Shown here one piece after another: positions 5,004 to 29,323 of a DNA stretch of 45,452 nucleotides. The position numbers were made by a program, and so were the translations under genes. The stretch spans positions 1 to 45,452 of the IMG/VR virus record IMGVR_UViG_3300031578_012373, one strand, 5' to 3'. The stretch comes from a virus. The notes under the pieces are model-generated. The model did not search any database. It was given only the letters and a program-made list of their open reading frames with translations, and had not been told where the DNA came from. Positions within the stretch are counted from its first letter, which is position 1. Every line of letters starts with the position of its first letter.

Positions 5004-5510
5004 TTATTCAGAATTTTTAATATTTTTTATTCGATCTTGTAATAAGTATAGCAATTCCGAAAAAATTCCTTGTCCTCCATTTTTTACAAAATTTGCAAAA
5101 CAAATGTTTTTTAAATATTCCCCAGCATCGTCTGGACAAATAGACTCTGGTATCAACTGTGCACATTTTCTATCTGAAATCATAGAAGCTATATAAATAG
5201 TTTCATCTGGAGTACAAGAATATCTCCTCAAAATTTCTATTAATCTATCATATTTTTCCTTTTCATTTTTGCCCCAATAAAATGGTATATTACGACGTCT
5301 ACACATATTATAGTTAATACGATTATCGCTGGATAAAAATACAAATTTAAAATATTTCTTAAGATCATTTATCGCATCAAAATCCCTACTCTGATAAACT
5401 TTATAAAATACATTCCCTATTTCATCCTCAGCATAAGTACCATCGGTTATTATTCCATCCATTTCACTGACAATAAGCCGAGCATTTTTACCAAAAAGTT
5501 CTTCTTCCAT
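5004..5510 (-). CDS. KdsC-like HAD phosphatase homologue, probably inactive
   Basis: The 168-residue protein has the length and layout of KdsC (3-deoxy-octulosonate-8-phosphate phosphatase): EMDGIITDG near 16, SRDFDAIN near 41, KNEKEKYDRL near 81 and the C-terminal GGQGIFSEL. The HAD catalytic residues are missing. The nucleophile position of the DxD pair is Glu16 (DVDG becomes EMDG), and the GDD metal-binding motif is ASM at 108-110. KdsC works in sugar-acid synthesis in the cytoplasm; this copy may instead be a regulatory or structural partner, or act on something else. It is the last gene of the carbohydrate island, 2 nt after the heptose-type kinase, with AAGGAG before its ATG. Confidence 0.75.
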   Translation of the reverse strand: MEEELFGKNARLIVSEMDGIITDGTYAEDEIGNVFYKVYQSRDFDAINDLKKYFKFVFLSSDNRINYNMCRRRNIPFYWGKNEKEKYDRLIEILRRYSCTPDETIYIASMISDRKCAQLIPESICPDDAGEYLKNICFANFVKNGGQGIFSELLYLLQDRIKNIKNSE

Positions 5511-5512
5511 TT

Positions 5513-6460
5513 TTATCTCCTTTTACTTAATTCATCTATACCAATAGTAGCTGTTCCCATTTTTCCAACTACTATTCCAGCTGCCTTATTTGACAATCTG
5601 ACCGCTGACCATATATCCATACCAGAAGCAATCGCTAGAGAAAGCGTTGCTATAACCGTATCACCTGCTCCAGATACATCAAATACTTCTTTAGCGGTAG
5701 TTTTAATATGTAATATTTTATTTTCGTCTTCAAAGAGCGTCATACCATCTTTTCCTTCGGTAATAAGTATAGATCCACAAACTATTTCATGAAATATTCT
5801 TTTCGCAGCAAAATTTAAATCTCCATCATTTTTTATTTCGAAGCCGCAAAAAATAGAGGCCTCTTCTTTATTAGGAACTATTATATTTACATGTCTATGC
5901 GCTATAAAATTATCTTTGTGAGGATCTGATATAATAAATTTTGAAAAATTATTTAGATCCCTTAATCTAAACATTAGCTGAGGAGAAACTACTCCTTTAT
6001 TATAATCAGATATTATTATACCATCAACGCTTTTTATATTACTTTTTATAACTTCCATAAGACTATCAACAAATCCATTTTTAATTTCTTCTCTGCTTTC
6101 CTCATCAAACCTGACTATCTGATGATTATTTCCAATAACTCTTGTTTTAACTGTAGTTGGTCTATCAGGATCTATTATGATCGTATTAATTGGTAAATCT
6201 AACTCTGTAGCTTTTCTTAGTATAGTTCCTCCGATTACATCTGCGCCAATTATGCCGCATAATATAGCCTTTGCTCCAAGAGTAACTATATTATGCGCAA
6301 CATTAGCAGCGCCGCCAAGTGTTTCTGTCTTTTCTTTAACTTCTACAATAGGCACTGGCGCTTCTGGAGAAATTCTGTAAACATTTCCCCAGATATATCT
6401 ATCTAGCATTATATCACCTATGACAAGAATCTTAATTTTTTCAAATCTATTTATCTCCAT
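5513..6460 (-). CDS. hldA: PfkB-family D-glycero-D-manno-heptose-7-phosphate kinase-like protein (HldE N-domain type)
   Basis: The sequence resembles the kinase half of HldE/RfaE, which phosphorylates heptose-7-phosphate at C1 on the way to ADP-heptose. From the ATG at 6460 there are 315 residues: VIGDIMLDRYIWG near 13, SPEAPVP near 31, GGAANVAHNIVTLGA (49-63), VSDYNKG-like ISDYNKG near 150, and the PfkB ATP/catalytic signature DVSGAGDT (261-268) with the catalytic Asp267. The adenylyltransferase domain of HldE is absent, and no GmhA, GmhB or HldD is present in the window. An upstream TTG at 6484 is in frame, but AAGGAG lies 7 nt before 6460. Its end is 2 nt from the KdsC-like gene. Confidence 0.85.
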   Translation of the reverse strand: MEINRFEKIKILVIGDIMLDRYIWGNVYRISPEAPVPIVEVKEKTETLGGAANVAHNIVTLGAKAILCGIIGADVIGGTILRKATELDLPINTIIIDPDRPTTVKTRVIGNNHQIVRFDEESREEIKNGFVDSLMEVIKSNIKSVDGIIISDYNKGVVSPQLMFRLRDLNNFSKFIISDPHKDNFIAHRHVNIIVPNKEEASIFCGFEIKNDGDLNFAAKRIFHEIVCGSILITEGKDGMTLFEDENKILHIKTTAKEVFDVSGAGDTVIATLSLAIASGMDIWSAVRLSNKAAGIVVGKMGTATIGIDELSKRR

Positions 6461-7259
6461 CTCTTGGCTCCTTTTTAGATTCAAAATAATATTCCATATT
6501 AATTAGCTCCTCTAACCTATTATTATATATTTCATTAAATAAATCATCTTTTTTGAAAGATTTATAATATTCATAATATTCATTATATTTATATTCATCA
6601 TTTTTTATCAAAAAATTTTCCAATGTTTTCGGATCTCTTCTTTTTCTCCATATACCTAAATGTAAACCATGATGTGGTCTAAACCATCCTTCTGGTAAAG
6701 AAAACCCAGATTCAACAACCATTTTATAAAGCGTTTCCTCATTTTTGGCATTGATTAATTCTCTGTTTTTAAGCTTGCCTCTGTGTTTTTGGACAATCCC
6801 GTCCATTTTAGAATAATATTCATGTTTTTTTATAAAATGAAGCCCAGATAGTCTTTTAGAATTAGGCCTAACACTATTACTATAAGGCAATTTAGTTTTT
6901 ATACAATGATTTAAATGTTGTTCTAATAATGATTCATCCTCTCTACATATAAGTATATCCACATCCCCTATATAAATATAATCATATTTATCAAAATCAT
7001 TAGAATTAAGCATCCATCGCAAAGTTTTTAATTCATGGCCGACTTTAGGATATCCTTCAAAACAATTTTCTTTTATTTCAATAATACCTAATTTATTTAA
7101 TTCACTGATAATGCTTATATATTTATTATTAAGACCTTCTGTTAAAAATAATTTTATACTATATTCAGGATATGATTTCAGACAAAAATATAAAAATATA
7201 GGTATATATTTTTGATACGCTTTATTCACTATTGTAGATATACATAATTTATTGCTCAT
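6447..7259 (-). CDS. GT-A-fold glycosyltransferase-like protein
   Basis: A 270-residue protein with a GT-A layout: an N-terminal strand (LCISTIVNKAYQKYIP), a long helix, then YIYIGDVDIL with the metal-binding DxD at residues 99-101. Towards the C-terminus HHGLHLGIWRKRRDP and many Tyr/Glu-rich residues follow. The DxD coordinates the nucleotide-sugar phosphates in this fold. Donor and acceptor are not visible from sequence. It overlaps its upstream neighbour by 11 nt and its downstream neighbour by 14 nt, and has no clear ribosome binding site, suggesting translational coupling. Confidence 0.75.
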   Translation of the reverse strand: MSNKLCISTIVNKAYQKYIPIFLYFCLKSYPEYSIKLFLTEGLNNKYISIISELNKLGIIEIKENCFEGYPKVGHELKTLRWMLNSNDFDKYDYIYIGDVDILICREDESLLEQHLNHCIKTKLPYSNSVRPNSKRLSGLHFIKKHEYYSKMDGIVQKHRGKLKNRELINAKNEETLYKMVVESGFSLPEGWFRPHHGLHLGIWRKRRDPKTLENFLIKNDEYKYNEYYEYYKSFKKDDLFNEIYNNRLEELINMEYYFESKKEPRDGDK

Positions 7260-8568
7260 TTTTTATATAATCTTTTATTAAATTTTCTATAATATTAGAA
7301 TGTCCTTTATCAAATACACGCACAACTATATTATTATCACTCAATAATTTAAGATATTCGGATAATTTATTTTTAAGTTCAGAAACTTTAGAAATATCTT
7401 CTCCTCTTGGAGATCCAGCAAAAATATTAATATATTTCAACAAGCCGCTACTAATAACATCTCTCATAAGAAACCATTCAGCACCTTCAATATTAAATCT
7501 TACTATATTAAAAGCGTTTTTAAAATTAGGCACATTTTTTGATGCCCAGTCTGAAAAAAGTATACCATCAACTTCATCATAAGTATTTATATTTACATTC
7601 GATTTTGTTGAAAATATAGAATCTCCTTGGCCTTTTTTATTATCATGGTATAATTTCACAGCTTTATTCTCATTAGTTATAGCCTTATTTAGTATAGATA
7701 TTCTTTTATCCATAAAATTAGCTTTTAAATATTTATACATTTTTTTATTGGGCTCAAAACAATATATTTTATAATCAGTTATATTTAGCTTATTACAAAT
7801 ATCTGTAAATAATTTAACTTCTGCGCCATTATACGTCCCTAAATCAAAATAATTTATATCTTTGGTATTTAAATAAGGAAGAATCTTATCAAGCTCTTTG
7901 GTTCTCCATGTTCTAGCATAAAAATGTAAAACTTCTATTTTATTTTGTTTTAGATCTTCAATTATAAGATCTGTTTGTTGAGGCTTCCCTGCTTTTCTAT
8001 TATATACATCAACATCAAGATCTATTACTTTATGACTTCCAGTTCTATAATATTTTCTTATTATATCTGAAAATGCAATCTGAGCATAAGAACCTTCATA
8101 AGCTACAACTCCCTTGCCTTTTTCATAGTTTAGTTTTTGTTCTTTATACCAGTCATCAAAAAATTTTCTATTATGCTCCGTATTGTATAAAAAATAAATT
8201 CCAGCACTTACAGATATATTTTGCCTATTCAATCTTGTAACAGCAAAATCAAAGCTATGATCTTCAAATATATGCCCTATATCTCTAATTAAATAACAAT
8301 CGATATCTAAGAATATTAATCTTTCCTCTGCTTTTTTTACAACATCTTGAGCTGCAAACACACGTCTGCCGGTATTTATTAACCAATCATCTGTTATATG
8401 ATTAAATAAATTAATTATAGTTATTCTATCGTTGTTAGACTTCCAATCAGGATCATCTGTGTAAATATATATATGTTTAACAGACATTCTTAACCATGAA
8501 TCTATTACAAAATCATAAGCATCTTTATAATTTTTTGAACACATTGTAAATATAGAATAATTAGTCAT
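7249..8568 (-). CDS. Fusion of a GT-A glycosyltransferase and an FkbM-type methyltransferase
   Basis: Residues 1-230 look like a nucleotide-sugar transferase: TDDPDW near 38, RLIFLDIDCYLI with DxD at 88-90, and an aspartate-rich region around 181-189. Residues 238-439 form an FkbM-like SAM methyltransferase: INYFDLGTYNGAE (238-250), YCFEPNKKMY near 272 and VRFNIEGAEW near 349, the counterpart of the family's D-x-E-G-x-E. FkbM enzymes O-methylate sugars. The fusion suggests that one protein adds a sugar and methylates it or its neighbour. AGGAG precedes the ATG; the start overlaps the preceding methyltransferase gene by 8 nt. Confidence 0.8.
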   Translation of the reverse strand: MTNYSIFTMCSKNYKDAYDFVIDSWLRMSVKHIYIYTDDPDWKSNNDRITIINLFNHITDDWLINTGRRVFAAQDVVKKAEERLIFLDIDCYLIRDIGHIFEDHSFDFAVTRLNRQNISVSAGIYFLYNTEHNRKFFDDWYKEQKLNYEKGKGVVAYEGSYAQIAFSDIIRKYYRTGSHKVIDLDVDVYNRKAGKPQQTDLIIEDLKQNKIEVLHFYARTWRTKELDKILPYLNTKDINYFDLGTYNGAEVKLFTDICNKLNITDYKIYCFEPNKKMYKYLKANFMDKRISILNKAITNENKAVKLYHDNKKGQGDSIFSTKSNVNINTYDEVDGILFSDWASKNVPNFKNAFNIVRFNIEGAEWFLMRDVISSGLLKYINIFAGSPRGEDISKVSELKNKLSEYLKLLSDNNIVVRVFDKGHSNIIENLIKDYIKNEQ

Positions 8569-9211
8569 TGTTTTTTCTCCTAAACAGCATCATTTCATGG
8601 CTGCCTATATTTTCATTTATTAACTTAACCAAATAGAATCCACAGCCATTAAATATATTGGAATAATATTCACTATTATTATATTTACTACCTCTAGCCC
8701 TAACTATAAATTCATTTGACAAAGTGGTTATATATTTTATAAATTTAATCTCCCTGTCTCTATATATTTCATCATAATGATGTCCTTTAATTATATTTCC
8801 TCCTCTACCTACCCAATATAATACAGCTATAGCAAATATAATATCAAATTTTCCTAAATTCATTGATGATAAATTTTCTAAACTATCATTAATGAATTTT
8901 ACATTTGGAACATTGAAATATTCTTTTAAAAAAGCACATTGCTTTAAATGCTTCTGCTCTCGCTCTATACCTATAACTTCTTCCGCGCCCATTTGAGCAG
9001 CTCTTATACAAAATAAACCAGCATTAGAGCCTAAATCTAATATTCTTTTTCCTGATAATGATTCTGGTAAAAGTTGTTTTATATAATTCCAAGCATACTC
9101 ACCAGATAATTTACTATGAGAACTAACAGCAGAAATTTCATTATTAAACTGTACGTTTTGATACCATGGCCTTAATTTTTTTATCTCATTATATAACCGA
9201 TCATTATTCAT
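8561..9211 (-). CDS. Class I SAM-dependent methyltransferase
   Basis: This 216-residue protein shows the SAM-binding motif I RILDLGSNAGLF (57-68), motif II VIGIEREQKHL near 79 with the acidic residue that contacts the ribose, and motif IV FDIIFAIAVLYWVG near 125. The N-terminal part (LRPWYQNVQF) resembles small-molecule and sugar methyltransferases. The substrate is unknown; within the glycan island a sugar hydroxyl or carboxyl is likely. It shares 8 nt with the glycosyltransferase-FkbM fusion downstream and lies 7 nt after a coiled-coil gene. Confidence 0.82.
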   Translation of the reverse strand: MNNDRLYNEIKKLRPWYQNVQFNNEISAVSSHSKLSGEYAWNYIKQLLPESLSGKRILDLGSNAGLFCIRAAQMGAEEVIGIEREQKHLKQCAFLKEYFNVPNVKFINDSLENLSSMNLGKFDIIFAIAVLYWVGRGGNIIKGHHYDEIYRDREIKFIKYITTLSNEFIVRARGSKYNNSEYYSNIFNGCGFYLVKLINENIGSHEMMLFRRKNND

Positions 9212-9218: not shown

Positions 9219-9623
9219 CTATTCAACTTTCTTTGGCTCATTTTCTAATACATTAACACCACTTGTTAATAATCTATCTATTTCAATTTTCTCGGCCTTA
9301 ATCTGTTTTAATAAATTTTTCTTATATTCAGCTCTATATTTGTTTAGCTTTCCAACATTTTCTTTTTTATTTTGCGCATCTCTTTGAATTTCTTTTTGTA
9401 TAACCTTCTTAAGATGTTCTGGATTACCATAATCAAAAAGATCTTCAGCAAGCAATTCTTGATCAGCTCTATATTCCTGCAATTTCCATACTATTTTCTT
9501 CGCCATTATATAAGCGTCTTCCAATAATTTTTTAATTCTTATTGAATCAGGATCATTTTTATTAACTAATATATCATAGATCTGTCTATGTACCTCGCAT
9601 ATAGTTCTTATTTTTTTGACCAT
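9219..9623 (-). CDS. Small helical, probably coiled-coil protein of unknown function
   Basis: I do not recognise the family. The 134 residues are almost all helix-forming and highly charged, with Lys and Glu dominant. They start with ICEVHRQIYDILVNKND and carry a long heptad-like stretch from about 75 to 118. There is no signal peptide or membrane segment. It sits inside the carbohydrate island between an LPS-kinase-like protein and a methyltransferase. A scaffold or subunit role for a neighbouring enzyme is possible but unsupported. AAAGGA precedes the ATG. Confidence 0.65.
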   Translation of the reverse strand: MVKKIRTICEVHRQIYDILVNKNDPDSIRIKKLLEDAYIMAKKIVWKLQEYRADQELLAEDLFDYGNPEHLKKVIQKEIQRDAQNKKENVGKLNKYRAEYKKNLLKQIKAEKIEIDRLLTSGVNVLENEPKKVE

Positions 9624-9650: not shown

Positions 9651-10226
9651 TTACAATTCTTCAAATTTTATTGGTTCTGCTTTTTCATTGCCCCATATCC
9701 AATTTCTTTTATCACAATCAGATATAACATGTTTTACATTTCCATATTTAGCATAGCCCCTTAAAAAAGCTAATATTTTTTTTCTTTTATATTTTCCCCT
9801 ACAATTCTTCAAACACAGTTTGGACATGCGTACAATATGCTCATCGTAGGTCTCATAAAGCAATTTTTTTAAATCTATATATATAGTAGAACTATTATTC
9901 CACACAAAATTTTTAAAATGATTGTCTACAGGCGATATTTTACCTATATCACGTAGTTCACTTATGTATCTTGCTAAATCAATACAGACTGGCTCTATCA
10001 TAGTTGGATTTTTTTCTATTTCATCGTGGATTGTATTCCCTTCTATCCATTCTGTAGTCTTATAAATTTGCCCATTAGTTTCCTTCACATCATACAACTC
10101 TGGAATCCTAAGCCCTAATTTTAATGCTTCTTTATGTATTGGCAATGATCTAAATAATTTATGTCTTTTATTAAAGATTTCTAATTTAGCCTGCTTGCCA
10201 TCATATATAATTTTTTTATAAGCCAT
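9651..10226 (-). CDS. LPS-kinase-like (atypical protein-kinase fold) protein
   Basis: The 191 residues look like a compact kinase of the RIO/LPS-core-kinase kind. An N-lobe strand region leads to KTTEWIEGNTIHDEI (56-70), the hinge. SPVDNHFKNFVW (98-109) has the catalytic Asp101 and Asn106 spacing, and IYIDLKKLL (116-124) supplies Asp118 in the DFG place. Such enzymes phosphorylate heptose or Kdo in LPS cores, which would suit the heptose-type kinase and GT9 gene of the same island. An in-frame GTG at 10235 exists, but AAAGGTG 7 nt before the ATG at 10226 favours the shorter form. The N-lobe lysine is not certain. Confidence 0.65.
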   Translation of the reverse strand: MAYKKIIYDGKQAKLEIFNKRHKLFRSLPIHKEALKLGLRIPELYDVKETNGQIYKTTEWIEGNTIHDEIEKNPTMIEPVCIDLARYISELRDIGKISPVDNHFKNFVWNNSSTIYIDLKKLLYETYDEHIVRMSKLCLKNCRGKYKRKKILAFLRGYAKYGNVKHVISDCDKRNWIWGNEKAEPIKFEEL

Positions 10227-10238
10227 TATCCACACCTT

Positions 10239-10805
10239 TTATTTATGTTTAATAGCAAAAATAATTCTCGCATTGTGATTGCCAACAAATTCATCTATTA
10301 CTGCGTACTTCTTATTAAAAAAATCTCTGATTTCAATTTTTGTAGCAGCAAAACAATCGGCAGAATCTACGTTTTCTACCTCTCCATGCCAATGAATATA
10401 ACAAACACCATTTCTTTTGACACAGCTCATCCAATTATCCAAACACAGTTCTGGATCATATGAATGATCAAAAGAATTGCTATAAATAAAATCTACATTA
10501 TTAATCCACCCATCCTTAACTTTGTGAAAGTCCCATTGTATTACATTCTTAAATTTATTAGCTGTCGGCGAAATTTCAGTTCCTATAATTTCTATATTTA
10601 ATAATTTTCTTAGTCGCTGAACTTCCCAGCCATTTCTAACACCATGACAAATACCAAATTTTAGATCAGGAATATTTTCTTTAATATGTTTAGACAATAA
10701 AATTATTTCCTTTTCCTTAATATATACAGTTTTTAATTTATTCACATTTTTAGCTAATTGAGCTTTATAATATTCATTATAATCCTTATGTTTATATAAT
10801 TTCAT
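10239..10805 (-). CDS. Methyltransferase-fold protein
   Basis: A 188-residue protein with a Rossmann-like methyltransferase layout. LKFGICHGVRNGWEVQRL (49-66) stands where motif I is expected, EIIGTEISP near 73 carries the ribose-binding acid, NVDFIYSNSFDHSYDP near 104 is motif IV, and NGVCYIHWHGE near 132 is motif VI. Motif I departs from the usual GxGxG, so SAM binding is likely but not certain. It lies between WbqC and the kinase-like gene in the carbohydrate island with no gap over 13 nt. The substrate is unknown. Confidence 0.68.
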   Translation of the reverse strand: MKLYKHKDYNEYYKAQLAKNVNKLKTVYIKEKEIILLSKHIKENIPDLKFGICHGVRNGWEVQRLRKLLNIEIIGTEISPTANKFKNVIQWDFHKVKDGWINNVDFIYSNSFDHSYDPELCLDNWMSCVKRNGVCYIHWHGEVENVDSADCFAATKIEIRDFFNKKYAVIDEFVGNHNARIIFAIKHK

Positions 10806-10816: not shown

Positions 10817-11491
10817 CTAATTTCTAAGTTTATTGTTAAATATATGATTTCCACAATTAAATAAATAATCAAGAATAGATAAATTAGCTTCAAAATTGCC
10901 CCATAATTGATTATATATTGGGCATTCATAGGTCACATATGTCAACTTAATTCCATTTCTATTAAATAATTCTTCATCATTATATACCTTAGCTCCTGCC
11001 CCAGATAAATATACAGAGGCACCAAGCTTATTACAAATATCTATAATTAATTCTGATTTATGTCCAAAATCAAAAAGTATTTCAGATAATCTAATCCGCC
11101 TATTATTTATGTTTAAATAGTTAGCAAATGTCTCAATTAAATTAATATTTATATCAACAAATGTGCCTTCTGTGCTAATCGCTGATTCATATAATTTAAA
11201 TATTTCAGAAAAATATTTCGCTTTAGAATAATTTGTTTTAATAGTTTTAAGATGCTTAGTTTTCCATCTTAGATCGGCAAATTTTACATCAGTATATTTT
11301 CCATTTTTAGAAATGCTGATTGGAATAGTAAGATATTCAACTCCTTTAGCCGTCTTTATTCTATTTCGTGCCCCAAATCCTCCGCGAGAATATTCTAAAC
11401 TATCTAAATAAACAAATATGTCGCAATCAAACATCTTTTGAAAATATCCCAAATAAGGAACATAATTAGGTTGATGAGCTGCTACTATCAT
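10817..11491 (-). CDS. WbqC-family protein
   Basis: The N-terminus MIVAAHQPNYVPYLGYFQK is the hallmark of the WbqC family, followed by CDIFVYLDSLEYSRGG and NRIKTAKG, all typical. WbqC proteins are found in O-antigen and capsule clusters, usually beside aminotransferases and acyltransferases, but their reaction is not settled. From the ATG at 11491 it has 224 residues; a second ATG four codons upstream (11503) is also in frame. I prefer 11491 because it overlaps the stop of the deacetylase gene as ATGA and matches the family start. Confidence 0.88.
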   Translation of the reverse strand: MIVAAHQPNYVPYLGYFQKMFDCDIFVYLDSLEYSRGGFGARNRIKTAKGVEYLTIPISISKNGKYTDVKFADLRWKTKHLKTIKTNYSKAKYFSEIFKLYESAISTEGTFVDININLIETFANYLNINNRRIRLSEILFDFGHKSELIIDICNKLGASVYLSGAGAKVYNDEELFNRNGIKLTYVTYECPIYNQLWGNFEANLSILDYLFNCGNHIFNNKLRN

Positions 11492-12123
11492 TTTATTACC
11501 CATCTAATCACTTCAAAAGATTCAGCATATGAACATCCTATTTGAACGCCTCTAACTTTAGCTAGACTTCTGATCAAATCTTCTGTAGCCTTATTTCTAT
11601 GCGCTTGTGATTTATAACATTTCATTGCTTCTATTTTTTTCAGCAAATGATCTTCTTGTAAAAGAATAAAAGCACTAGTATTAAATACTAAATTATTCCA
11701 CGGAACTTCATATCCCAACATTGTAATATTTTTAAATGCTCGAAATCCCTCTTGAGCAACTACTTGATGATCTTGATGCGTGTCATCAAGACAAGGAAGA
11801 AAAACTATATCAGGCTCTATAATAGATTTAAATTTTATCAGGTCTTCTAAAATTTCTTGCCTATATGACAAAAAATCTCTAACTGGATATGATAAAACTG
11901 TTAGATTTTCTTTTGATATTCCAAGTATTAATGTAGCTTCTTTTACTTCTTTTTTCAAAATATTTCTTGGAAATTGCTTCAGTACCGATTTTTCAGCTGC
12001 TGAAAAGGCCAAATAAAAAACCTTTTTACCTTCTTGGATAAATCTAGCAATAGAACCACCGCAACCAAATTCTCCATCATCAGTATGAGGCGCTAATATT
12101 AAAACTCTATTGATATCATTCAT
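11488..12123 (-). CDS. PIG-L/LmbE-family sugar N-deacetylase
   Basis: Zinc-dependent removal of an N-acetyl group from an amino sugar is the family reaction. APHTDDGEFGCGGS (11-24) supplies the zinc ligands His13 and Asp16 and the general base Asp15. DDTHQDHQ (113-120) supplies the third histidine ligand region. At 211 residues it has the normal family length. It ends in an ATGA overlap with the WbqC gene and starts 8 nt inside the epimerase gene, with AAGGA upstream. It probably acts on a nucleotide sugar or lipid-linked sugar made by neighbouring genes. Confidence 0.87.
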   Translation of the reverse strand: MNDINRVLILAPHTDDGEFGCGGSIARFIQEGKKVFYLAFSAAEKSVLKQFPRNILKKEVKEATLILGISKENLTVLSYPVRDFLSYRQEILEDLIKFKSIIEPDIVFLPCLDDTHQDHQVVAQEGFRAFKNITMLGYEVPWNNLVFNTSAFILLQEDHLLKKIEAMKCYKSQAHRNKATEDLIRSLAKVRGVQIGCSYAESFEVIRWVIK

Positions 12124-13078
12124 TATATTTTTCCTTTTTTATATACCATTCTATAGTTTTTGATAATCCATTCTGACTATTTATAACAGGTTTATATCCA
12201 ATCAATTTATGCGCTAATCGAATATCTGCTTTATGACACATTACATCTGCCAGTCTTTGTTTATTATAACTGACTAATATTTTTTTTTCGCATATTGCTA
12301 AGATTTTATCAACCCAACTATTCATGGAATAATTAATTCCACTACCAATATTTAATATTATATTTCTTAAATTATCATGACTATATAAAAGAATAGCTGC
12401 ACTTACTACATCAGATACATATGTAAAATCTCTAGACTGTTTTCCATCTCCAGTGATAACTATTTCTTTATCATTCAATATATTCATAATAACTTTTGGA
12501 GTTATTGCTGCATATTGTCCAGCATTTTGTCTAGGCCCGTATATATTAAAAGGACGAAGTATTACTGCGTTTATATCAAATGTTTTACAATATGAAAGTA
12601 TCAATAAATCTGAGGCTGCTTTACTTGCTGCATATGGTGTAGTAGCATTTAAAGGATGTTTTTCATCCATAGGAAGATATGCAGCTGATCCATAAGCTTC
12701 TGAAGATGAAAAATGTATAAGCCTATTATATTTACCATTTAAAAGCAAATCACATAAACTACGAGTAATTTCAACGTTAGTATGAAACGTATATGATGGG
12801 TCTTTGAAGGATGCTGGCAATGGTATTACTGCTAAATTAAATACTGTGTCTATTTTCTCCTTCTGTATAACATCATTTAATACAGAAAAACTAGCATTTG
12901 CATGGACAAATTTAAATAAATTATCAGTTTTTGGCAAATTCTCTTTTTTGCCTAAAGAGAGGTTGTCCACTACTATAACTCTATTGCCATATTTTAATAG
13001 CTCATTAACTAAATGACTTCCCACAAAACCAGCGCCACCTGTTACCAATATGGATTCGCTTCTTAAATTTATTCCCAT
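12116..13078 (-). CDS. NAD-dependent nucleotide-sugar epimerase/dehydratase (extended SDR)
   Basis: From the ATG at 13078 this is a 320-residue extended SDR. VTGGAGFVGSHL near 12 binds NAD, VVDNLSLGKKENL near 36 follows, FSSSEAYG near 118 gives the catalytic Ser, YAASK near 143 gives the Tyr/Lys pair, and LRPFNIYGPRQ near 170 completes the family pattern. Such enzymes epimerise or dehydrate UDP- or GDP-sugars in the cytoplasm. The frame extends 12 codons further to 13114, but GAGGG lies just upstream of 13078. It follows the ATP-grasp gene with the two coding regions nearly abutting. Confidence 0.87.
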   Translation of the reverse strand: MGINLRSESILVTGGAGFVGSHLVNELLKYGNRVIVVDNLSLGKKENLPKTDNLFKFVHANASFSVLNDVIQKEKIDTVFNLAVIPLPASFKDPSYTFHTNVEITRSLCDLLLNGKYNRLIHFSSSEAYGSAAYLPMDEKHPLNATTPYAASKAASDLLILSYCKTFDINAVILRPFNIYGPRQNAGQYAAITPKVIMNILNDKEIVITGDGKQSRDFTYVSDVVSAAILLYSHDNLRNIILNIGSGINYSMNSWVDKILAICEKKILVSYNKQRLADVMCHKADIRLAHKLIGYKPVINSQNGLSKTIEWYIKKEKYNE

Positions 13079-13103
13079 TTTGCCCTCAACTATTTTTTTT
13101 AAT

Positions 13104-17594: not shown

Positions 17595-17595
17595 T

Positions 17596-19420: not shown

Positions 19421-19432
19421 TTTATTTATCTC

Positions 19433-21526: not shown

Positions 21527-21529
21527 AAT

Positions 21530-22480
21530 CTAACTCCTTATATTAAATTCTTTCTTCACGATTTCAGTGAATTGCTTTACTCTAACAGCACAACTGTGAT
21601 TTTCTCGAACAAATTCCATACCTTGTTTAGCTATTCGTTCTCTTTCCACATCATGTTCTAAATAATATTTAATCTTATCCTCTAGATCTTTTAAATTTTC
21701 ATACAAAACCAAATGCTTACCATCAATAAAACCTTCTTTTTCAAAATCTCTAGGCTTATCAGTCAAAAAAAATGTGCCGCATCCCAGTACTTCAGAAAAT
21801 TTCATAGTTAAACTTTTCCACAACCCACCAGCGTTCACAAAAATTTTAGATCTATTTATTGTTTTTATATAATCATTCCTGGTCACTTTTTTAATGAAAG
21901 TTTTAACTCCTAAATTTTGTATCAATTCATGTATTTTTAATCTATCAGGATAAAAAAAAGGAATAGTGGTAAATGAAGCCATAACATCTATATCCTTTTT
22001 TAAATTTAGATTTTTATATTTGTTTATATCTACACAAAAAGGCAAAAAATAAACTTTTTCCATCTTTAGATTTGCTTTTAAATCTTCCACAATTCTAGTA
22101 ACAAAAGCAAAAATTAAATCATATTTATTTTGATGAAAATATTTATCAAGGTTTTCATGAAAAGAAAAACCCTGAAATTCCTTTGGTAATTGTATTTCAC
22201 GCTGAGTTTTGTAGTCAATCTGAATATGAACTTTAGGAATATTTGTAATTGTGCCAAGGCCTTTAAAATTTCTACTATATTTTATTTCATATGTAAGAAT
22301 TATATCAAATGGTTTATTCAATTTTTTTAAAATTTGAGGAACTGTTAATTTTGGATCAAATCCTGAAAAACCTTGACCATAATAAACAACGTCATGCTGC
22401 CTACCAAATTCATTTTTAAATAGTTGATGTCCCCAATTATATCTTTCTATCTGGTTAGGATTTAAAAGTAGTATTCGCAT
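21530..22480 (-). CDS. CgeB-like GT-B glycosyltransferase
   Basis: From the ATG at 22480 this is a 316-residue protein that looks like the CgeB/GT4-like group: MRILLLNPNQIERYNWG at the N-terminus, KVYFLPFCVD near 150, SKIFVNAGG near 218 with the donor-binding stretch KSLTMKFSEVLGCGTFFLTD, and ENHSCAVRVKQF at the end. CgeB proteins glycosylate spore or surface material. An in-frame start lies 14 codons upstream (22522), but AAGGA 9 nt before 22480 is the clear ribosome binding site. Sugar and acceptor are not readable from sequence. Confidence 0.8.
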   Translation of the reverse strand: MRILLLNPNQIERYNWGHQLFKNEFGRQHDVVYYGQGFSGFDPKLTVPQILKKLNKPFDIILTYEIKYSRNFKGLGTITNIPKVHIQIDYKTQREIQLPKEFQGFSFHENLDKYFHQNKYDLIFAFVTRIVEDLKANLKMEKVYFLPFCVDINKYKNLNLKKDIDVMASFTTIPFFYPDRLKIHELIQNLGVKTFIKKVTRNDYIKTINRSKIFVNAGGLWKSLTMKFSEVLGCGTFFLTDKPRDFEKEGFIDGKHLVLYENLKDLEDKIKYYLEHDVERERIAKQGMEFVRENHSCAVRVKQFTEIVKKEFNIRS

Positions 22481-22499
22481 TTTATTATTTCCTTTATTT

Positions 22500-23435
22500 C
22501 TACAATTTTTTAAACAATTCAATTAGTTTTTTCATATTTTTTTCTCGCGAACCAATATTATTTCTTAAATGATTGTTCATTCTTTCTATAACAGCCCAAT
22601 TTGGATGCTTAATAAGATCTGCAGCGTGTTCTATATTTCTTGCTTCATATACCATAGCAGTATTATCATTAAAAGCATAATCAAATCCCATACCATTTAA
22701 AGTCGAATCATTACAAACTATTAAACAGCCACATAATGCGGCTTCCATAGGAATATTATGTAACCCTTCTAATTCAGTAGGAGCAAACCATATATGACAT
22801 GAGCTATAAATATCATTTAATTCTTTTATTGAAGCATTAGATTTAAAGTATGTAAGAAATGGATCGTTTCGTACATTATTTCCTATTCCAATATATTCAT
22901 ATTTTTCCGTACCAAGTATTCTAGCAAGTTCTATAAAATCTATCCATCTTTTTGTAGATTTTTTATTATATAAACATCCAATTCTTATTTTATTATTCGA
23001 TCTTAATTCTCCATCTTTCCATAAATTAAAATCTAATCCCTGATAAATTACAATAGAATCAGCTCCATAAGAAGCTAATTTTTGTTTTAGATTTTTAGAA
23101 TTTACTATATTAAACAATCCTGCATTATAATATTTTCCAAGCCGATCTTCATTACATGCCCATGACTCATGGCCTCTTATATACCATGCTTTCTTTTCAA
23201 TACGAGAAGATAAAGTATTTTCTACAGTTGTACAAGCAGTAGCAACAATAATATCTGTATCTAATGGAATATATGATATAACTGGCTTATGATCAAACCA
23301 AGTAAAATTATCTACGGTTGCAACTATATTACACTGATGCCCCAACTGCTCTATAGTTTCAACGCATTTTATAATTGTTTGGCTTCCGCCATTATTTCCT
23401 AATCCAGAATTTAAACTATTAAACACTATTTTCAT
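22500..23435 (-). CDS. GT4-like GT-B glycosyltransferase
   Basis: A 311-residue enzyme: FNSLNSGLGNNGGSQTI (5-21) is the acceptor-side glycine loop, AWYIRGHESW near 87 follows, and the donor-side motif is WFAPTELEGLHNIPMEAALCG near 215, matching E-G-x-x-x-x-x-x-E in GT4 enzymes. The closing region contains SREKNMKKLIELFKKL. Its ATG is preceded by GAGG and overlaps the end of a 57-codon ORF by 17 nt. It belongs to a run of four adjacent GT-B genes. Confidence 0.82.
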   Translation of the reverse strand: MKIVFNSLNSGLGNNGGSQTIIKCVETIEQLGHQCNIVATVDNFTWFDHKPVISYIPLDTDIIVATACTTVENTLSSRIEKKAWYIRGHESWACNEDRLGKYYNAGLFNIVNSKNLKQKLASYGADSIVIYQGLDFNLWKDGELRSNNKIRIGCLYNKKSTKRWIDFIELARILGTEKYEYIGIGNNVRNDPFLTYFKSNASIKELNDIYSSCHIWFAPTELEGLHNIPMEAALCGCLIVCNDSTLNGMGFDYAFNDNTAMVYEARNIEHAADLIKHPNWAVIERMNNHLRNNIGSREKNMKKLIELFKKL

Positions 23436-23592
23436 TTTTTGGCCTCGATCTTTTGCTTGTTTCCTCGTAAGCTTTCATTAGTATTTTAAATTCTTTTTTT
23501 GTTAATGGCTTTCCTTCTTTTAAAGAACTATATATTTTTTTATAAATATTTTTTTCTTTTTCAGTCATTGTTTTAAAAGAATTTATATTCAT
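23419..23592 (-). CDS. Small basic helical protein, 57 aa, unknown
   Basis: This small gene fills what would otherwise be a 153-nt gap between two glycosyltransferase genes. Its ATG overlaps the stop of the upstream gene as ATGA and its own stop lies 17 nt inside the downstream gene, the local packing pattern. The protein is rich in Lys and Glu (KEKNIYKKIYSSLKEGK around 12-28, KKEFKILMKAYEETSK around 32-47) and probably helical, with no membrane segment. No family is recognised. The spacing to the nearest GGAG is about 16 nt, long for direct initiation, so coupling is likely. Confidence 0.6.
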   Translation of the reverse strand: MNINSFKTMTEKEKNIYKKIYSSLKEGKPLTKKEFKILMKAYEETSKRSRPKNENSV

Positions 23593-24560
23593 ATTATTTC
23601 TTTTATTTTCTCCTTTATAAAATTCGCAGCATGACTAAGAGATAAATTTTCTTCGTAATATTTTCTAGGATTATATTTTTTTGAATTATTTAAAACATGC
23701 TCCACAACTTCCCAAAAATTATTTTTATTTGCCAATTCCCCAGTAACTCCGCTAATGATATATTTTTCTTTCCAAAATCTGATAGAATCCAAAACTACAA
23801 CAGGCAAACCACAAGCTAATAATTCTGGAATAATACGTGGACATGAGTCTATTTCACTTTCTACCGCTACTATCCCCACTTTACATTTAGCTATATGTTT
23901 TGGCATCTCAGCTCTTAATACTCTATAAGACATTACGTTTTCTGGATGCCTGTAGTTATGTGGATTATTACCAAGATTTAATAATTTTAAATTTGACGGA
24001 ACAGTTTTATATATAAAAGCATGGCCTTTAAATTTTTGACTACCATTAGCAGGAAAGCATACATCATATTCTTTTTCACATTCTATAGGATAAAATATAT
24101 TATCTGCCGCAGGTTTTATAAATAATGTTGTTAATATCTTAGGAAATCTCTTTTTACATATTTCAACTTGTTCTGGAGAGTCTTGCAATATTATATTATA
24201 ATTATAAAATCCTTGTTGTGGTATAAATCTTCTTCCTGCCCCATATCTAATTTTAAAAGCCTTTGGGTATCTATAAAATACTTTATGATATTCTTTAAAA
24301 GCGCCTCTAGCAAAAATTATATCTGGTCTAAAATTATTTTTATAAGTTTCAAAAGAAGGTACCCATCTTTCAATAAAATTATTAGCGAATTTCTTTTTCC
24401 TATTACCATGCCAATACCATAGTTCACCAACATCATTATTTTCTAATAGATTATAAAATAGTTGTGTCCACATATCATCAACTTCTTTAAGATTATCAAA
24501 CACTATTTCTTTAGGATTTCTATCCTGTGGGACTTGGCCTCTAAGCATTAATAATTTCAT
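23589..24560 (-). CDS. GT-B-like glycosyltransferase
   Basis: The 323-residue protein has an N-terminal MKLLMLRGQVPQDRNP, an aromatic-rich middle (WTQLFYNLL, ELWYWHGN) and a C-terminal donor-binding region CPRIIPELLACGLPVVVLD near 240, where P-E-x-L-x-C-G-x-P is typical of GT4-type enzymes. The DNA upstream of the ATG lacks a clear AGGAG, suggesting coupling to the GT9 gene, which ends 3 nt away. Donor sugar and acceptor are unknown. Confidence 0.76.
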   Translation of the reverse strand: MKLLMLRGQVPQDRNPKEIVFDNLKEVDDMWTQLFYNLLENNDVGELWYWHGNRKKKFANNFIERWVPSFETYKNNFRPDIIFARGAFKEYHKVFYRYPKAFKIRYGAGRRFIPQQGFYNYNIILQDSPEQVEICKKRFPKILTTLFIKPAADNIFYPIECEKEYDVCFPANGSQKFKGHAFIYKTVPSNLKLLNLGNNPHNYRHPENVMSYRVLRAEMPKHIAKCKVGIVAVESEIDSCPRIIPELLACGLPVVVLDSIRFWKEKYIISGVTGELANKNNFWEVVEHVLNNSKKYNPRKYYEENLSLSHAANFIKEKIKEII

Positions 24561-24562
24561 AT

Positions 24563-25450
24563 TTAGTTTATTTTTTTCCTTATAGTATTTACTATGATTT
24601 TAGGATCAATATTTCTACATTCCCAATTTTTACAATTTTTATTCCAGTTTTCACTAGCCTGGCATGGCCTACATTTTAAATCATCTCTATATATTAATGT
24701 GCTATACTTATGAAATCGTTCATCATAATTTTTATCTATAGAAGTAGCAGTAAATATTACTACATTTTTTACTTCGAGCGCATTTGCTGCATGATATAAT
24801 CCACTATCATTACTTAAAAATACTTTACAATTTTTTATAATACCTAAACTTGTTAATAAATCTAGCCCAGTTTTATCATCTGTATCTTTTATATATTCAT
24901 TCTTAATACCTATAGAACAAATTCTAAATCCCTTTAACAGCTTTACTATTTCTCTATAATAAGGATAGCTTTTAATACTCCAATTAGAAGCTCCATATCT
25001 ATTGTATCCATTATGAATGACTATATCATATTTATTTTTAGGATCTCTTACCTCATTATAATTGCATTTTCCATGCCAAATTAAATCCTCTTCTTTCACC
25101 CCAAGATTTCTTGCAATATCCATATAAGTATCTACTTCAGATCTACTCATTCTCAATGGCTGTATATTACTTAATAATGGCAATTTATCCAATGGCGAAA
25201 TATTCAAACGATTCTTAGTCCAACGAGTTGAAACTTTGCCTTTATATTCAGACGGATTAATGGTTCTTATTTTCTTACCTACTATCCATCTATCTACATA
25301 AGGAATAATTTTTGGTATATTATAACTACCAAAAGCATGCCAATAATCAATAAATTCAAAATTCAATCTTTCTTTTAAAGTTCTAATAACTGGAATAGTT
25401 TCTATAACATTACCTATACCTTCCGCTGTCATAAAGAGTAGTCTTTTCAT
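24563..25450 (-). CDS. GT9-family (heptosyltransferase-like) glycosyltransferase
   Basis: The 295-residue protein has EGIGNVIETIPVIRTLKE (10-27), the GDxxxxTPxIRALK-like motif of ADP-heptose:LPS heptosyltransferases. Near 208 it has NCKVFLSNDSGLYHAANAL, the SxDTGxxHLAAAL counterpart, and then VIFTATSIDKNYD and CRPCQ. GT9 enzymes add heptose to inner-core LPS. With a heptose-type kinase (5513) and an LPS-kinase-like gene (9651) in the same island, use of a heptose is plausible but unproven. AAAGGA precedes the ATG and it starts 4 nt after the next gene ends. Confidence 0.86.
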   Translation of the reverse strand: MKRLLFMTAEGIGNVIETIPVIRTLKERLNFEFIDYWHAFGSYNIPKIIPYVDRWIVGKKIRTINPSEYKGKVSTRWTKNRLNISPLDKLPLLSNIQPLRMSRSEVDTYMDIARNLGVKEEDLIWHGKCNYNEVRDPKNKYDIVIHNGYNRYGASNWSIKSYPYYREIVKLLKGFRICSIGIKNEYIKDTDDKTGLDLLTSLGIIKNCKVFLSNDSGLYHAANALEVKNVVIFTATSIDKNYDERFHKYSTLIYRDDLKCRPCQASENWNKNCKNWECRNIDPKIIVNTIRKKIN

Positions 25451-25454: not shown

Positions 25455-26333
25455 TTATCCTTTTAAATATAAAGTTTCATCCCATTTATTTAATCTATCA
25501 TCAAATATTAAATAATCATTATACATCTTAGCTCTCGTCATTTCATAAAATTTATTTTCTTTTATTATACTTTTCAAATTATCCAATCGCTCCTCATATG
25601 AATTACCAATTAAATTACCAGGCCTATTTTTTCCATAATAACCAATATGTATTTGTCTATTAACTTTAGGCATTATAACATACATATCATCTTGTATCAT
25701 AGCAATATCAACTAATCTATTAATTAACCCAGCTTGCTCATTATGTACTGGTTTTTTATATTTATAACGGCTATCATTTATAAAATTTTTATCCAGTGAC
25801 CCAACAAATTTAGCCCTACTATTAAAACTAGCATAATAAGAAGAATTAATACAATGAACAATATAATCATTGAAAAATTTCTTAGTTATTAAAGGCGCCA
25901 ATGCCGCATAATGATGTCCTCTATACACCTCATTTATACTGCCTTTATTATTATTATTAAAAGGAGACAAAATACTAAACTTTACAATATCCATATTTAA
26001 TAAAATATTCATATATTTAAAATAAGTTTTATGAATTAATATATCATCTTCAACATATATAATATAATCATTTGCTATACCAAATGCTTCCTTCATTCCT
26101 TCGAGTATGTTTTTGGATAAACCATATTGCTCTGTTCTTAATATAATTTTCTTTTCAAATGGATATTCTTTTATTAAATCTATTGTTTTCTGCGGCGAAC
26201 CATATTCAATTAAAAATACAGTAATAAATTCGCCTGGTAACATGAAATATTCTCTGGCTAATACTTCATATTCAATAGATAATTGCAACATTTCTGGACG
26301 ATTAAATACTGGCCTTAATATGACTTGACTCAT
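25455..26333 (-). CDS. GT2-like GT-A glycosyltransferase
   Basis: A 292-residue protein starting MSQVILRPVFNRPEMLQLS, the P-V-F-N-R-x-x-x start of GT2 enzymes. The metal-binding motif YIIYVEDDILI (around 91-101) supplies the DxD-type acid pair, and later HNEQAGLINRLVDIAMIQDD near 197 is rich in acidic residues. The family transfers sugars from nucleotide donors to polysaccharide or protein acceptors. GAGG precedes the ATG; the start overlaps the stop of the preceding methyltransferase gene by 4 nt. Confidence 0.8.
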   Translation of the reverse strand: MSQVILRPVFNRPEMLQLSIEYEVLAREYFMLPGEFITVFLIEYGSPQKTIDLIKEYPFEKKIILRTEQYGLSKNILEGMKEAFGIANDYIIYVEDDILIHKTYFKYMNILLNMDIVKFSILSPFNNNNKGSINEVYRGHHYAALAPLITKKFFNDYIVHCINSSYYASFNSRAKFVGSLDKNFINDSRYKYKKPVHNEQAGLINRLVDIAMIQDDMYVIMPKVNRQIHIGYYGKNRPGNLIGNSYEERLDNLKSIIKENKFYEMTRAKMYNDYLIFDDRLNKWDETLYLKG

Positions 26334-26815
26334 TTTATTTTCCTCGCCTTCAAAATCATATTATTATCTGCTTCCTTATAAGATATGATTTGAAATTTAC
26401 ATTCCTCAAGTAAAGAGGATAACCATTCTTTATCAAACCCTACATAATGAAAATTTAAGGCATAATCTTGGCCTCCATATAAAAGCCAAGAAGTTAATTT
26501 TGTATTATGGACTCTATCTATGTATTTTTTGCATATAGCCCTCAAATTAGGGCACCTAAGCTCCAAAATACCCCCTATTTTAAGAGATCTATTCCATCCC
26601 CATAGGATAGCCTTAGTCTTATCAATTGGAAAGTGTTCTATAATGTCACTAGCTAATATATAATCAGCGCAGCTTTCTTTAAATGGTAGATATTCTACGT
26701 CGGCTATTACATTAATTCCTTTTAATTTTCTTTTATCAACATTTATACATTTACATTCTTCTAAGTTCTCAAATTGTTTATTGCCACAACCTAAATTTAA
26801 AGCTATATCTATCAT
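26330..26815 (-). CDS. SAM-dependent methyltransferase, type 11
   Basis: The 161-residue protein is a compact methyltransferase: IALNLGCGNKQFENL (4-18) is motif I, CINVDKRKLKG near 23 motif II, EYLPFKESCADYILASDIIEHF near 41 motif IV, and LKIGGILELRCPNL near 78 motif VI. It is shorter than average but keeps the core fold. It lies between a GT4 and a GT2 gene, so the substrate is probably a sugar or sugar-lipid. AAGGAG precedes the ATG. Confidence 0.82.
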   Translation of the reverse strand: MIDIALNLGCGNKQFENLEECKCINVDKRKLKGINVIADVEYLPFKESCADYILASDIIEHFPIDKTKAILWGWNRSLKIGGILELRCPNLRAICKKYIDRVHNTKLTSWLLYGGQDYALNFHYVGFDKEWLSSLLEECKFQIISYKEADNNMILKARKIK

Positions 26816-26828: not shown

Positions 26829-27959
26829 TTACAATGAACTAATAAGATCTATTATTTTTTGGCCTACTTTATCCCAACTCAAATTTTCAGCAATATATTT
26901 TTTTAATAATTCGCCTTTGTTTTTAGCTTCTTCCTGATTATTATATACGTGTTTCATTAATTCAATAGCATGACCACAATCAGGCTCAGCCCACATTTGT
27001 ACAATACCTTTTTCATGATTATACCATGGGCTCCAGTTCATACCAAAAACAGGGGTTAATGAATACTTAGCTAAATAGCTATGCTCTGGCTTAGCGTATT
27101 CTAAAGCTCCGCCTCCTCCAGTAATTATAACTGGATTGCCTGCTGCACCAGCCTCAAAACCTGGAAGACCAAACCCCTCAAATCTATCCAAACTAACAAA
27201 ACAATCTCCAATTTTATGAAGTCCTAATATTTCATTCCTAGTTAACATTTCTAATATTAAATAAATAGGTGGATAATTATCCATTCTTGTCACATCTTTT
27301 AATTTCAAAATAGTTTTTCTTACAGCATTTTTTTCTTTCTCAGAAAAGTCTGCTCTATAAGTTTTTAAAATCAAAGCTACATTTTCATTATTTTGAAATG
27401 CAGCCCAATATGATTTAATTAAAGCCATTGGGTGCTTTCTTTCAGTAAATTGAAATATGTCATAAAATTTATAAATGTCTTTTTTTATATTACCTATAGA
27501 ATATGGTTCTACATTGTCATATTCATTAACATCTATGCCATGAGGAACACTAAAAATAGGCACTTTTACTCCAGAGTCTTTAAATACTTTAACATTCCAA
27601 TCACAGCCAACCATTACTGCATCTACATTATTATTTATATGATCCACCCAACTATAATGTAGCTTAGTAGTTTCCCATACAGTATATCCTATATTAATTT
27701 TATTAGGTTCCCTATGTTTTTCCCAAAATTCTGGAGTAGTGTGTAGTATAACTACATTATAATCTATATCCTTATTTACAAGATCTCCTAAAATTACCCC
27801 CTCTTCTCCCCAATTAGGCACCTCTTTTTCAAACGTAATTGGCTTAAGTGTTAACGGTATACCCAGCCTATTCAATGCTAGAATATATCCTCTAGAAGCT
27901 TGACCATACCCAGAATGATCAAACATTGGTCCGAAATATTTAATGCCTCTTATTTTCAT
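26829..27959 (-). CDS. GT4-family glycosyltransferase
   Basis: A 376-residue GT-B enzyme: GPMFDHSGYGQASRGYILAL (10-29) is the N-terminal loop that binds the acceptor side, FSVPHGIDVNEYD near 136 follows, and FVSLDRFEGFGLPGFEAGAAG near 253 is the donor motif with E-G-F-G-L-P and the pair of Glu residues of the family. Linking features such as FQFTERKHP near 168 also fit. It is adjacent to a similar GT4 gene at 27971; the two may be related by duplication. GGAGG precedes the ATG. Confidence 0.86.
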   Translation of the reverse strand: MKIRGIKYFGPMFDHSGYGQASRGYILALNRLGIPLTLKPITFEKEVPNWGEEGVILGDLVNKDIDYNVVILHTTPEFWEKHREPNKINIGYTVWETTKLHYSWVDHINNNVDAVMVGCDWNVKVFKDSGVKVPIFSVPHGIDVNEYDNVEPYSIGNIKKDIYKFYDIFQFTERKHPMALIKSYWAAFQNNENVALILKTYRADFSEKEKNAVRKTILKLKDVTRMDNYPPIYLILEMLTRNEILGLHKIGDCFVSLDRFEGFGLPGFEAGAAGNPVIITGGGGALEYAKPEHSYLAKYSLTPVFGMNWSPWYNHEKGIVQMWAEPDCGHAIELMKHVYNNQEEAKNKGELLKKYIAENLSWDKVGQKIIDLISSL

Positions 27960-27970
27960 CTTATCGCCTC

Positions 27971-29323
27971 CTAAATCTCTTCTGTTTTAATAATCTTGTT
28001 TATGTTATTGTCTATTTCTTGCTGGGTTTCTTTTTGCTCCTTGCCTATTTTTTCATATAATTCATCAAATAATTCCACCCATTGCTTTACAATATTCTTC
28101 TGCCAATCCATTTTTTCTACTATCCATTTATAAGCATTTTCTGCTTTCTGTATAGCCTCTTCTCTATTATTATAAACATAAACTAATTTATCGACTAAAT
28201 CATTTATATCAACTAATGGCCTTAATATTTCATTATCGTGCGGCAATATTGAAAATAAATTATCATCTGATCCGCTTTTTACTAAATATCCTCTATCTTC
28301 GGTTATAAACTCTATCATAGAAGTATTAGCTGGCATAATTACTGGAACTTTAGCAGCCATTGCTTCAATCCAACTTAAGCCCCAGCCTTCTCCAGTGGTA
28401 GTACTTATAACAACATCACTAGCATTATATAAAAGATTTACAATTTCTCTAGGATATCCTTGGTTAGCTCCAAAATTTTGAGGGAATATAACATCTTTAT
28501 TAATATTAAATCCAATATTATCACATATACTTTTCAAATCCCAACCCTGATCTTTTATTGACATATGTAAATATAACATAGAATCAGGCACTATTTCTCT
28601 AAATTTTTTAAAAGCCATTATTGTTCTAGGAATATCTTTTCTTTGTTGATTTCTATTAAGATTAGTTATAATAAACTTATCAGCCTCTGAACCAAAATAT
28701 CTATTTCTAAATGATGTTATCTGCTGTTTTTGAAGAGGAAAGTATTCCCTCGTATTAACGCCATGATTTATTATTCTAACATCGTTATTAGGCAAAACTT
28801 TCAATGTTTCATCCCTACCAAAACTACAGTATGCTACTAAAGTATTAACTACTTCTATATTTTTTGCCCACTCTTTTTTTAATATTGAATCTATAGGATA
28901 ATACACAATAGATTCAAATGGATTTTTTCTATTCGCTTTTAAATGCGGCATTAAAACTGGTAAAAAATCCATTATAAACGTATCTTGCAAAAAGAACAAT
29001 ATATCAAAATCCATTTGTTGTATCATATTTATAACTTTCTGTCTTCCATACGGATCTTTTTGCGGATTAGTGCCTACTGGCCATATTCTATAAGGAAAAT
29101 TATGAGGGTCGCCCCAATAATTTATTCCAAGAATATCAATCTCATAACGCCCAGTTCTATAAAGACCCTCAAAAATATTTCTTGATACCGTACCAAAACC
29201 AGTTGCACATGTTGGCGAATCACAATAAGCCAATATTTTTATTTTCTTTTGTTTATTAGTAACTTGCTGTGGCTTAAAATTTTTATTTCTTGTCTTTCTT
29301 ATTTTTTTTGAACCTCTTGCCAT
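27971..29323 (-). CDS. GT4-family glycosyltransferase with basic N-terminal extension
   Basis: This 450-residue enzyme starts with about 28 Lys/Arg-rich residues, then CDSPTCATGFGTVSRNIFEG (34-53) as the acceptor-side loop, INHGVNTREYFPL near 185 and TTTGEGWGLSWIEAMAAKVP near 315 as the donor motif. The C-terminal 40 residues are highly charged and probably helical. The basic tail could bind nucleic acid or membrane; which, the sequence does not tell. It is the first gene of the carbohydrate island in the direction of transcription. AAGGAG precedes the ATG. Confidence 0.86.
   Translation of the reverse strand: MARGSKKIRKTRNKNFKPQQVTNKQKKIKILAYCDSPTCATGFGTVSRNIFEGLYRTGRYEIDILGINYWGDPHNFPYRIWPVGTNPQKDPYGRQKVINMIQQMDFDILFFLQDTFIMDFLPVLMPHLKANRKNPFESIVYYPIDSILKKEWAKNIEVVNTLVAYCSFGRDETLKVLPNNDVRIINHGVNTREYFPLQKQQITSFRNRYFGSEADKFIITNLNRNQQRKDIPRTIMAFKKFREIVPDSMLYLHMSIKDQGWDLKSICDNIGFNINKDVIFPQNFGANQGYPREIVNLLYNASDVVISTTTGEGWGLSWIEAMAAKVPVIMPANTSMIEFITEDRGYLVKSGSDDNLFSILPHDNEILRPLVDINDLVDKLVYVYNNREEAIQKAENAYKWIVEKMDWQKNIVKQWVELFDELYEKIGKEQKETQQEIDNNINKIIKTEEI

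Follow-up and report, generated by a model that had tools for sequence, protein, structure and literature searches.

We found that a large set of glycan-synthesis genes lies inside the DNA-replication module of a virus record, IMGVR_UViG_3300031578_012373 of IMG/VR (a linear record of 45,452 bases, analyzed at full length and called the window below). Our best reading is that large tailed phages of an uncultured lineage inherit this island vertically as a stable module. It comprises 29 open reading frames (ORFs), all on the minus strand, from the start of the first at 29323 to the end of the last at 5004. A preliminary reading made from the letters alone (the sequence-only reading) had placed the same limits correctly and had described a same-strand run of about 26 genes; the run was confirmed, but the count was too low. 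Its observations of no strand change and no transposase also held, and that of no gap was nearly right, there being a single gap of 153 bp (23436–23588). Glycan-enzyme models (Pfam and NCBIfam; some matches below curated cut-offs) matched 23 of the 29 ORFs: eight glycosyltransferases, three methyltransferases, two SDRs, two hexapeptide acyltransferases and eight single enzymes (DegT, Gfo/Idh/MocA, WbuX, WbqC, PIG-L, ATP-grasp, HldA and a KdsC-like HAD protein). The island is thus a contiguous cluster of lipopolysaccharide (LPS) type between phage replication genes. As the sequence-only reading had proposed, these genes stand on both sides and the flanks are a nuclease gene and dnaX; the clamp, RecA, DnaB, primase, DnaJ, RuvC and PD-(D/E)XK nuclease lie upstream, and DnaX, PolA, dUTPase and RNR downstream. 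GC and skew were continuous over both borders. The border genes and the two core transferases, designated GT4_450 and GT4_376, were:

29334–30467, minus strand: PD-(D/E)XK (AddB/Cas4-type) nuclease, fixed 5' island border (Pfam PF12705, 4.6e-16; PHROG exonuclease)
27971–29323, minus strand: GT4_450, core glycosyltransferase (GT-B fold), first island gene (PF00534 over cut-off; PHROG 2170)
26829–27959, minus strand: GT4_376, second core glycosyltransferase (GT-B fold; PF00534 over cut-off; PHROG 2170)
3832–4905, minus strand: DnaX-like clamp loader, fixed 3' island border (PF13177, 8e-26)

A scan of viral contigs based on the nuclease returned 17 relatives. All 17 kept the replication gene order, and in each the nuclease gene was followed by GT4_450, either directly or after a few ORFs at most. 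The same two ends (the nuclease, and dnaX or polA) flanked a glycan island in about nine further contigs, which came from other metagenome records. The interval from the nuclease to DnaX/PolA was complete in G005 (150 kb), G013, G017 and the L061 contig, where islands of 17.1, 13.5, 16.2 and 9.5 kb were found and DnaX occupied the same place. In a remoter group (L076, L084, L086, L090, L093), 5.6–10.4 kb separated the nuclease from PolA; the L084 interval contained genes for GT2 transferases, SDRs and DegT together with PglD-like genes. Bounded islands other than the window's measured 5.6–17.1 kb, and the window's 24.3 kb was the largest. A second scan, by primase alignment with no glycan gene as query, yielded 80 loci. 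We counted a contig as informative if the nuclease was present with at least 2.5 kb beyond it; GT4_450 followed the nuclease in 36/36 such contigs, and in all informative relatives the nuclease gene lay upstream of GT4_450. Contigs of the lineage reached 298 kb. Few loci came from scans with a single DnaX or KdsC-like sequence as query, no relative was found when GTDB was scanned with GT4_450 for a host, and cultured relatives were remote (primase at best about 30% identity, nuclease about 23%). A search of related phage genomes for the same gene order, suggested in the sequence-only reading, succeeded: a glycan set occupied the slot in every informative relative, which strongly supports its claim that a large set of glycan-building genes belongs to the phage itself.

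These results bear on whether a bacterial O-antigen locus was misassembled beside phage genes, or whether the segment is non-functional stuffer DNA. The gene types do match bacterial surface-glycan loci, and a stuffer role has been put forward for cyanophage clusters (PMC3037559). However, the same borders recurred in about nine other contigs, the core was universal and highly conserved, and composition ran on across the borders, so that we regard either explanation as highly improbable. Misassembly of an O-antigen locus, the danger to which the sequence-only reading had pointed, is ruled out by the other contigs with bounded islands.

The first enzyme of the island was more conserved than the replication proteins around it. 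Median pairwise identity across 61 contigs was 0.59 for GT4_450 versus 0.44 for primase, 0.46 for DnaB and 0.45 for the nuclease, and GT4_450 was more conserved than each of these in 97–98% of contig pairs, in a set that was partly retrieved with GT4_450 itself and may favour conserved copies. GT4_450 identity was higher than that of RecA in 87% of pairs (49 contigs); the two were about equally conserved in the group nearest the window. Identity of GT4_450 correlated with that of primase, DnaB and the nuclease (r = 0.88–0.91), and the median for GT4_376 was 0.53. Genes proximal to the nuclease recurred across contigs (the core pair, often a small methyltransferase, GT2, GT9 and GT323/311), whereas the distal genes differed strongly between contigs. 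The arrangement is best read as a "fixed core plus variable cassette" pathway that is vertically inherited, a layout similar to that of bacterial capsule loci.

Both core proteins are GT-B glycosyltransferases of the GT4 type. Their AlphaFold models (pLDDT 84 for GT4_450 and 91 for GT4_376) matched GT4 structures, and the alignments contained an EG[FW]GL..xEA motif (E-x7-E-type donor motif). The best PDB match of GT4_450, by fold and by sequence profile, was 3oy2, the B736L glycosyltransferase of a chlorovirus, which infects eukaryotes; 3oy2 was also the best fold match of GT4_376.

Export machinery was missing from the records searched. Neither the Wzx flippase (PF01943) nor the phosphoglycosyl transferase (PF02397) was found in any of 51 records (0/51 for each), in searches whose positive controls matched. 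A simple hydropathy scan detected no polytopic membrane protein in the window's island; its threshold was passed only by HldA (two segments) and DegT (one), both expected to be soluble. We rejected a Wzx/Wzy-type O-antigen or capsule locus with export, because the flippase, the initiating transferase and polytopic proteins of the polymerase/ligase type were missing. For the same reason a new exported polymer is unlikely, barring use of host machinery, and a cytoplasmic acceptor fits better. The sequence-only reading had offered virion decoration or host-surface remodelling, and these absences speak against a new host-surface polymer.

We give an about even chance to the reading that the island's product decorates a protein of the phage virion. 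In the cytoplasm of the infected cell, GT4_450 and GT4_376 would start the chain by attaching the first sugars to a fixed acceptor, and other transferases would extend it. Unusual sugars (amino, N-acetyl, amidated, methylated and possibly heptose) would be made or trimmed by the variable cassette, drawing on the sugar-nucleotide pools of the host. The resulting glycan may give each phage its own "serotype", hiding the particle or tuning adsorption. A fixed acceptor is suggested because the first enzymes are conserved, and a cytoplasmic one because membrane and export proteins were lacking in the records searched. That acceptor is presumably a virion protein, which we prefer because export genes are missing, because the best match is a chlorovirus glycosyltransferase, and because mycobacteriophages are reported to glycosylate their virions (Freeman 2023, as cited in PMC12619734). 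Several points weigh on the other side. The resemblance to chlorovirus 3oy2 is at the level of the fold, with 17% identity; the missing export genes are compatible with use of host machinery; the island has no complete sugar-nucleotide pathway; and a DNA acceptor would fit at least as well with the site in the replication module and with a homologue of thymidylate synthase (TS) that lies inside the core pair in some relatives. In the window this gene was:

41228–41920, minus strand: thymidylate-synthase homologue (PF00303, 3.9e-11; nearest the methanogen-type model TIGR03283, below cut-off)

Because of that site and that homologue, we kept glycosylation of phage DNA, which has no place in the sequence-only reading, as a serious rival, although on balance a rather improbable one. 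The TS-like enzyme would make a hydroxymethylated pyrimidine, to which GT4_450, GT4_376 and the outer enzymes would add a sugar chain that protects against host nucleases. In 12 contigs the homologue lay between the two core transferases. Its catalytic Cys and uracil-type Asn are intact, as in TS of E. coli and in dUMP hydroxymethylase of SPO1, and SPO1 gp29 was among the homologue's phage matches. The same residues fit TS and dUMP hydroxymethylase alike, however, and cannot separate them, and no TS homologue was found in the core-pair records G053, G041, G027 and G013 (up to 189 kb; these may be incomplete). T4 offers a precedent, in that its beta-glucosyltransferase adjoins a TS-family dCMP hydroxymethylase, and there is a report of DNA hypermodification by diverse glycans (Pyle 2024, as cited in PMC12619734 and PMC13216743). 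The N-terminus of GT4_450 in the window, Lys/Arg-rich and disordered, would also suit a DNA acceptor. In contrast, known DNA-glycosyltransferase families were absent from the island's Pfam matches (E ≤ 0.001), no C5-methyltransferase occurred in 29 records (0/29), and the variable amino-sugar cassettes look like surface-glycan loci. A route through TET and C5-methylcytosine was rejected, given the lack of a C5-methyltransferase and of any TET/JBP match in 29 records (0/29), the latter in a search without a positive control. It is likewise unlikely, in our estimate, that a strain-specific oligosaccharide is built on the phage genome, with a TS-family handle in some members, the universal pair starting the chain and a swappable cassette finishing it, so as to give the genome a "serotype" against nucleases.

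We hold it doubtful that the island serves to remodel LPS or capsule on the host surface during infection, for instance so that competing phages are shut out. The enzymes of O-antigen/LPS type (WbuX, WbqC, HldA, the KdsC-like protein and GT9) would suit such a role, which has been proposed for jumbo cyanophages (PMC7824862). But the 0/51 counts for the flippase and the initiating transferase and the lack of polytopic membrane proteins in the island argue against it, and one would not expect the core to be better conserved than the replication proteins if the acceptor were a changing host polysaccharide.

Large glycan clusters are known in phages. In cyanophages P-SSM2 and S-SSM7, as in the present record, glycosyltransferases, epimerases and sugar enzymes are encoded together in large blocks (PMC3037559; PMC7824862), and a 15-gene cyanophage cluster with PfkB kinases has been described (PMC7824862); the sequence-only reading, which took one to a few such genes to be usual in phages, overlooked these. 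In T4-like cyanophages the clusters lie near hli03, phoH and tRNA genes and only in larger genomes, and the choice between function and stuffer was left open. The present island, in contrast, sits between fixed replication genes, has a universal conserved core pair and occurs in every informative relative; the matches of GT4_450 included no cyanophage of the P-SSM2 kind. Moraphages (PMC12619734), which reach 307 kb, resemble this lineage in being large and aquatic, in having DnaJ and in the four glycosyltransferases of their core genome, but they carry a family B DNA polymerase where this lineage carries PolA. T4, with the gp42 hydroxymethylase and its glucosyltransferases, likewise places a glycosyltransferase beside a TS-family enzyme among replication genes; here, however, there are many transferases and a sugar-making cassette, the TS homologue may be either a TS or a hydroxymethylase, and no known DNA-glycosyltransferase family was matched. 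The closest GT4_450 homologue in a cultured phage (37.7%) belongs to Tetrasphaera phage TJE1, beside nucleotidyltransferase, kinase, epimerase and methyltransferase genes; that six-gene cluster lies upstream of the terminase in a 49-kb genome, outside the replication module. The open-access literature searched yielded no description of a lineage-wide island at a fixed replication-module site whose core exceeds replication proteins in conservation, nor of inteins in glycosyltransferases. That a whole lineage keeps the island at one place with a first enzyme better conserved than its replication proteins argues for a central role of phage-made glycans in its life cycle. The fixed-core, variable-cassette layout predicts phage serotypes, and GT4_450 and GT4_376 are two concrete enzymes with which to search for the acceptor, be it virion protein, DNA or host surface.

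The remaining island genes, in the direction of transcription, were:

26330–26815, minus strand: methyltransferase, recurrent beside the core pair (PF08241, 1.4e-5; homologues in many relatives)
25455–26333, minus strand: GT2-family glycosyltransferase, recurrent (PF00535, 8e-7)
24563–25450, minus strand: GT9 (heptosyltransferase-family) glycosyltransferase, recurrent (PF01075, 1.6e-7)
20627–24560, minus strand: four GT-B-type glycosyltransferases, at 23589–24560, 22500–23435, 21530–22522 (PF13524, 2.5e-23) and 20627–21526, the other three matching group-1 glycosyltransferase models below cut-off
18269–20607, minus strand: amino-sugar set of hexapeptide acyltransferase, Gfo/Idh/MocA dehydrogenase and DegT aminotransferase (Pfam; NCBIfam PseC/LegC-like below cut-off)
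17596–18279, minus strand: protein with no Pfam or PHROG match
16803–17609, minus strand: LpxD/NeuD-like acyltransferase (Hexapep 2.4e-22, LpxD 2.3e-9)
15641–16789, minus strand: N-acetyl sugar amidotransferase, WbuX/WbpG/PseA family (TIGR03573, 214.7 bits, cut-off 203.2)
14850–15644, minus strand: SDR epimerase/dehydratase (PF01370, 3.5e-24)
14177–14887, minus strand: methyltransferase (PF08241, 5.9e-22)
13104–14180, minus strand: ATP-grasp enzyme with PylC-like N-terminus (PF15632, PF02655, PF21360)
12116–13114, minus strand: SDR, sugar-nucleotide dehydratase/epimerase (PF01370, 3.9e-60; LegB-like below cut-off)
11488–12123, minus strand: PIG-L N-deacetylase (PF02585, 2.3e-16)
10817–11503, minus strand: WbqC-like protein (PF08889, 2.7e-66)
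10239–10805, minus strand: methyltransferase-like protein conserved in the lineage (no family match; 60% identical gene in the G005 island)
9651–10235, minus strand: kinase-like protein (weak Bud32 match)
9219–9623, minus strand: small protein (no match)
8561–9211, minus strand: methyltransferase (PF13847, 2.5e-11)
7249–8568, minus strand: protein with C-terminal FkbM-like methyltransferase region (PHROG 8156, 4.2e-8, residues 263–370; N-terminal half without family match)
6447–7259, minus strand: possible glycosyltransferase (no significant Pfam/PHROG match)
5513–6484, minus strand: HldA/RfaE-domain-I heptose-7-phosphate kinase (TIGR02198, 353.7 bits, cut-off 345)
5004–5510, minus strand: KdsC-like HAD protein (KDN-9-phosphatase/KdsC models, below cut-off)

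Family matches upheld the aminotransferase (DegT), the two SDRs, the ATP-grasp enzyme and the two hexapeptide acyltransferases of the sequence-only reading, and likewise supported Gfo/Idh/MocA, WbqC, WbuX and HldA. Eight of its ten glycosyltransferase domains were supported by family models (five over Pfam cut-offs, three below) and the other two were not. Among its five methyltransferase domains, Pfam supported three and PHROG one (FkbM-like), leaving the fifth (10239–10805) without a match. PIG-L stood as a deacetylase, and the second supposed deacetylase (17596–18279) had no match; the supposed LPS kinase (9651–10235) had only weak Bud32-type matches. Homologues of the transferases at 23589–24560 and 22500–23435 occupied the same place in G005, G004, L064 and L067. 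The KdsC-like gene was the fixed last gene of the island, before dnaX, in nearer relatives and stood beside dnaX also in L048; its product was 59–70% identical in G005, G013 and G017. The first Asp of the HAD motif (the nucleophile) was Glu in all four aligned KdsC-like sequences, which by established HAD chemistry suggests that phosphatase activity may have been lost or changed and that the protein is possibly a pseudo-enzyme.

Outside the island, a tail-like protein at 42037–43932 of the window adjoins the clamp gene, carries a repeated DLSAYI-type motif and is kept in relatives; it had no PHROG or Pfam match, and adjacent tail-like proteins were left unnamed by PHROGs.

Both core transferases were interrupted by inteins in some relatives: GT4_450 in 8 of 62 ORFs, in frame and at two different sites, and GT4_376 in 7 of 53, at three. 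One GT4_450 site splits the donor-binding EGFGL/SWIEA motif, and the EGFGL site is common to both enzymes. Pfam Intein_splicing and LAGLIDADG matches were found in one GT4_450 intein. The inteins were located as follows:

GT4_450, EGFGL site: L079:10010-12457, L083:10001-12481, L098:10013-12580, L126, L137, L172
GT4_450, LYLH site: L096, L127
GT4_376, FQW^TERKH site: L051, L133, L139, L179
GT4_376, MPW^SPWY site: L074, L156
GT4_376, EGFGL site: L180

Intein-like insertions also occurred in relatives' TS homologue (directly before the catalytic Cys), PolA and DnaX (L160:11669-13492; L047:11564-13786; L050:10639-12624). At the island border of G013 (G013:C1:17049-20370), two ORFs of 311 and 809 amino acids lie between the nuclease and GT4_450; the larger has, by eye, CapR-type zinc repeats and an HNH-like C-terminal part, and the two are probably insertions of the homing-endonuclease type.

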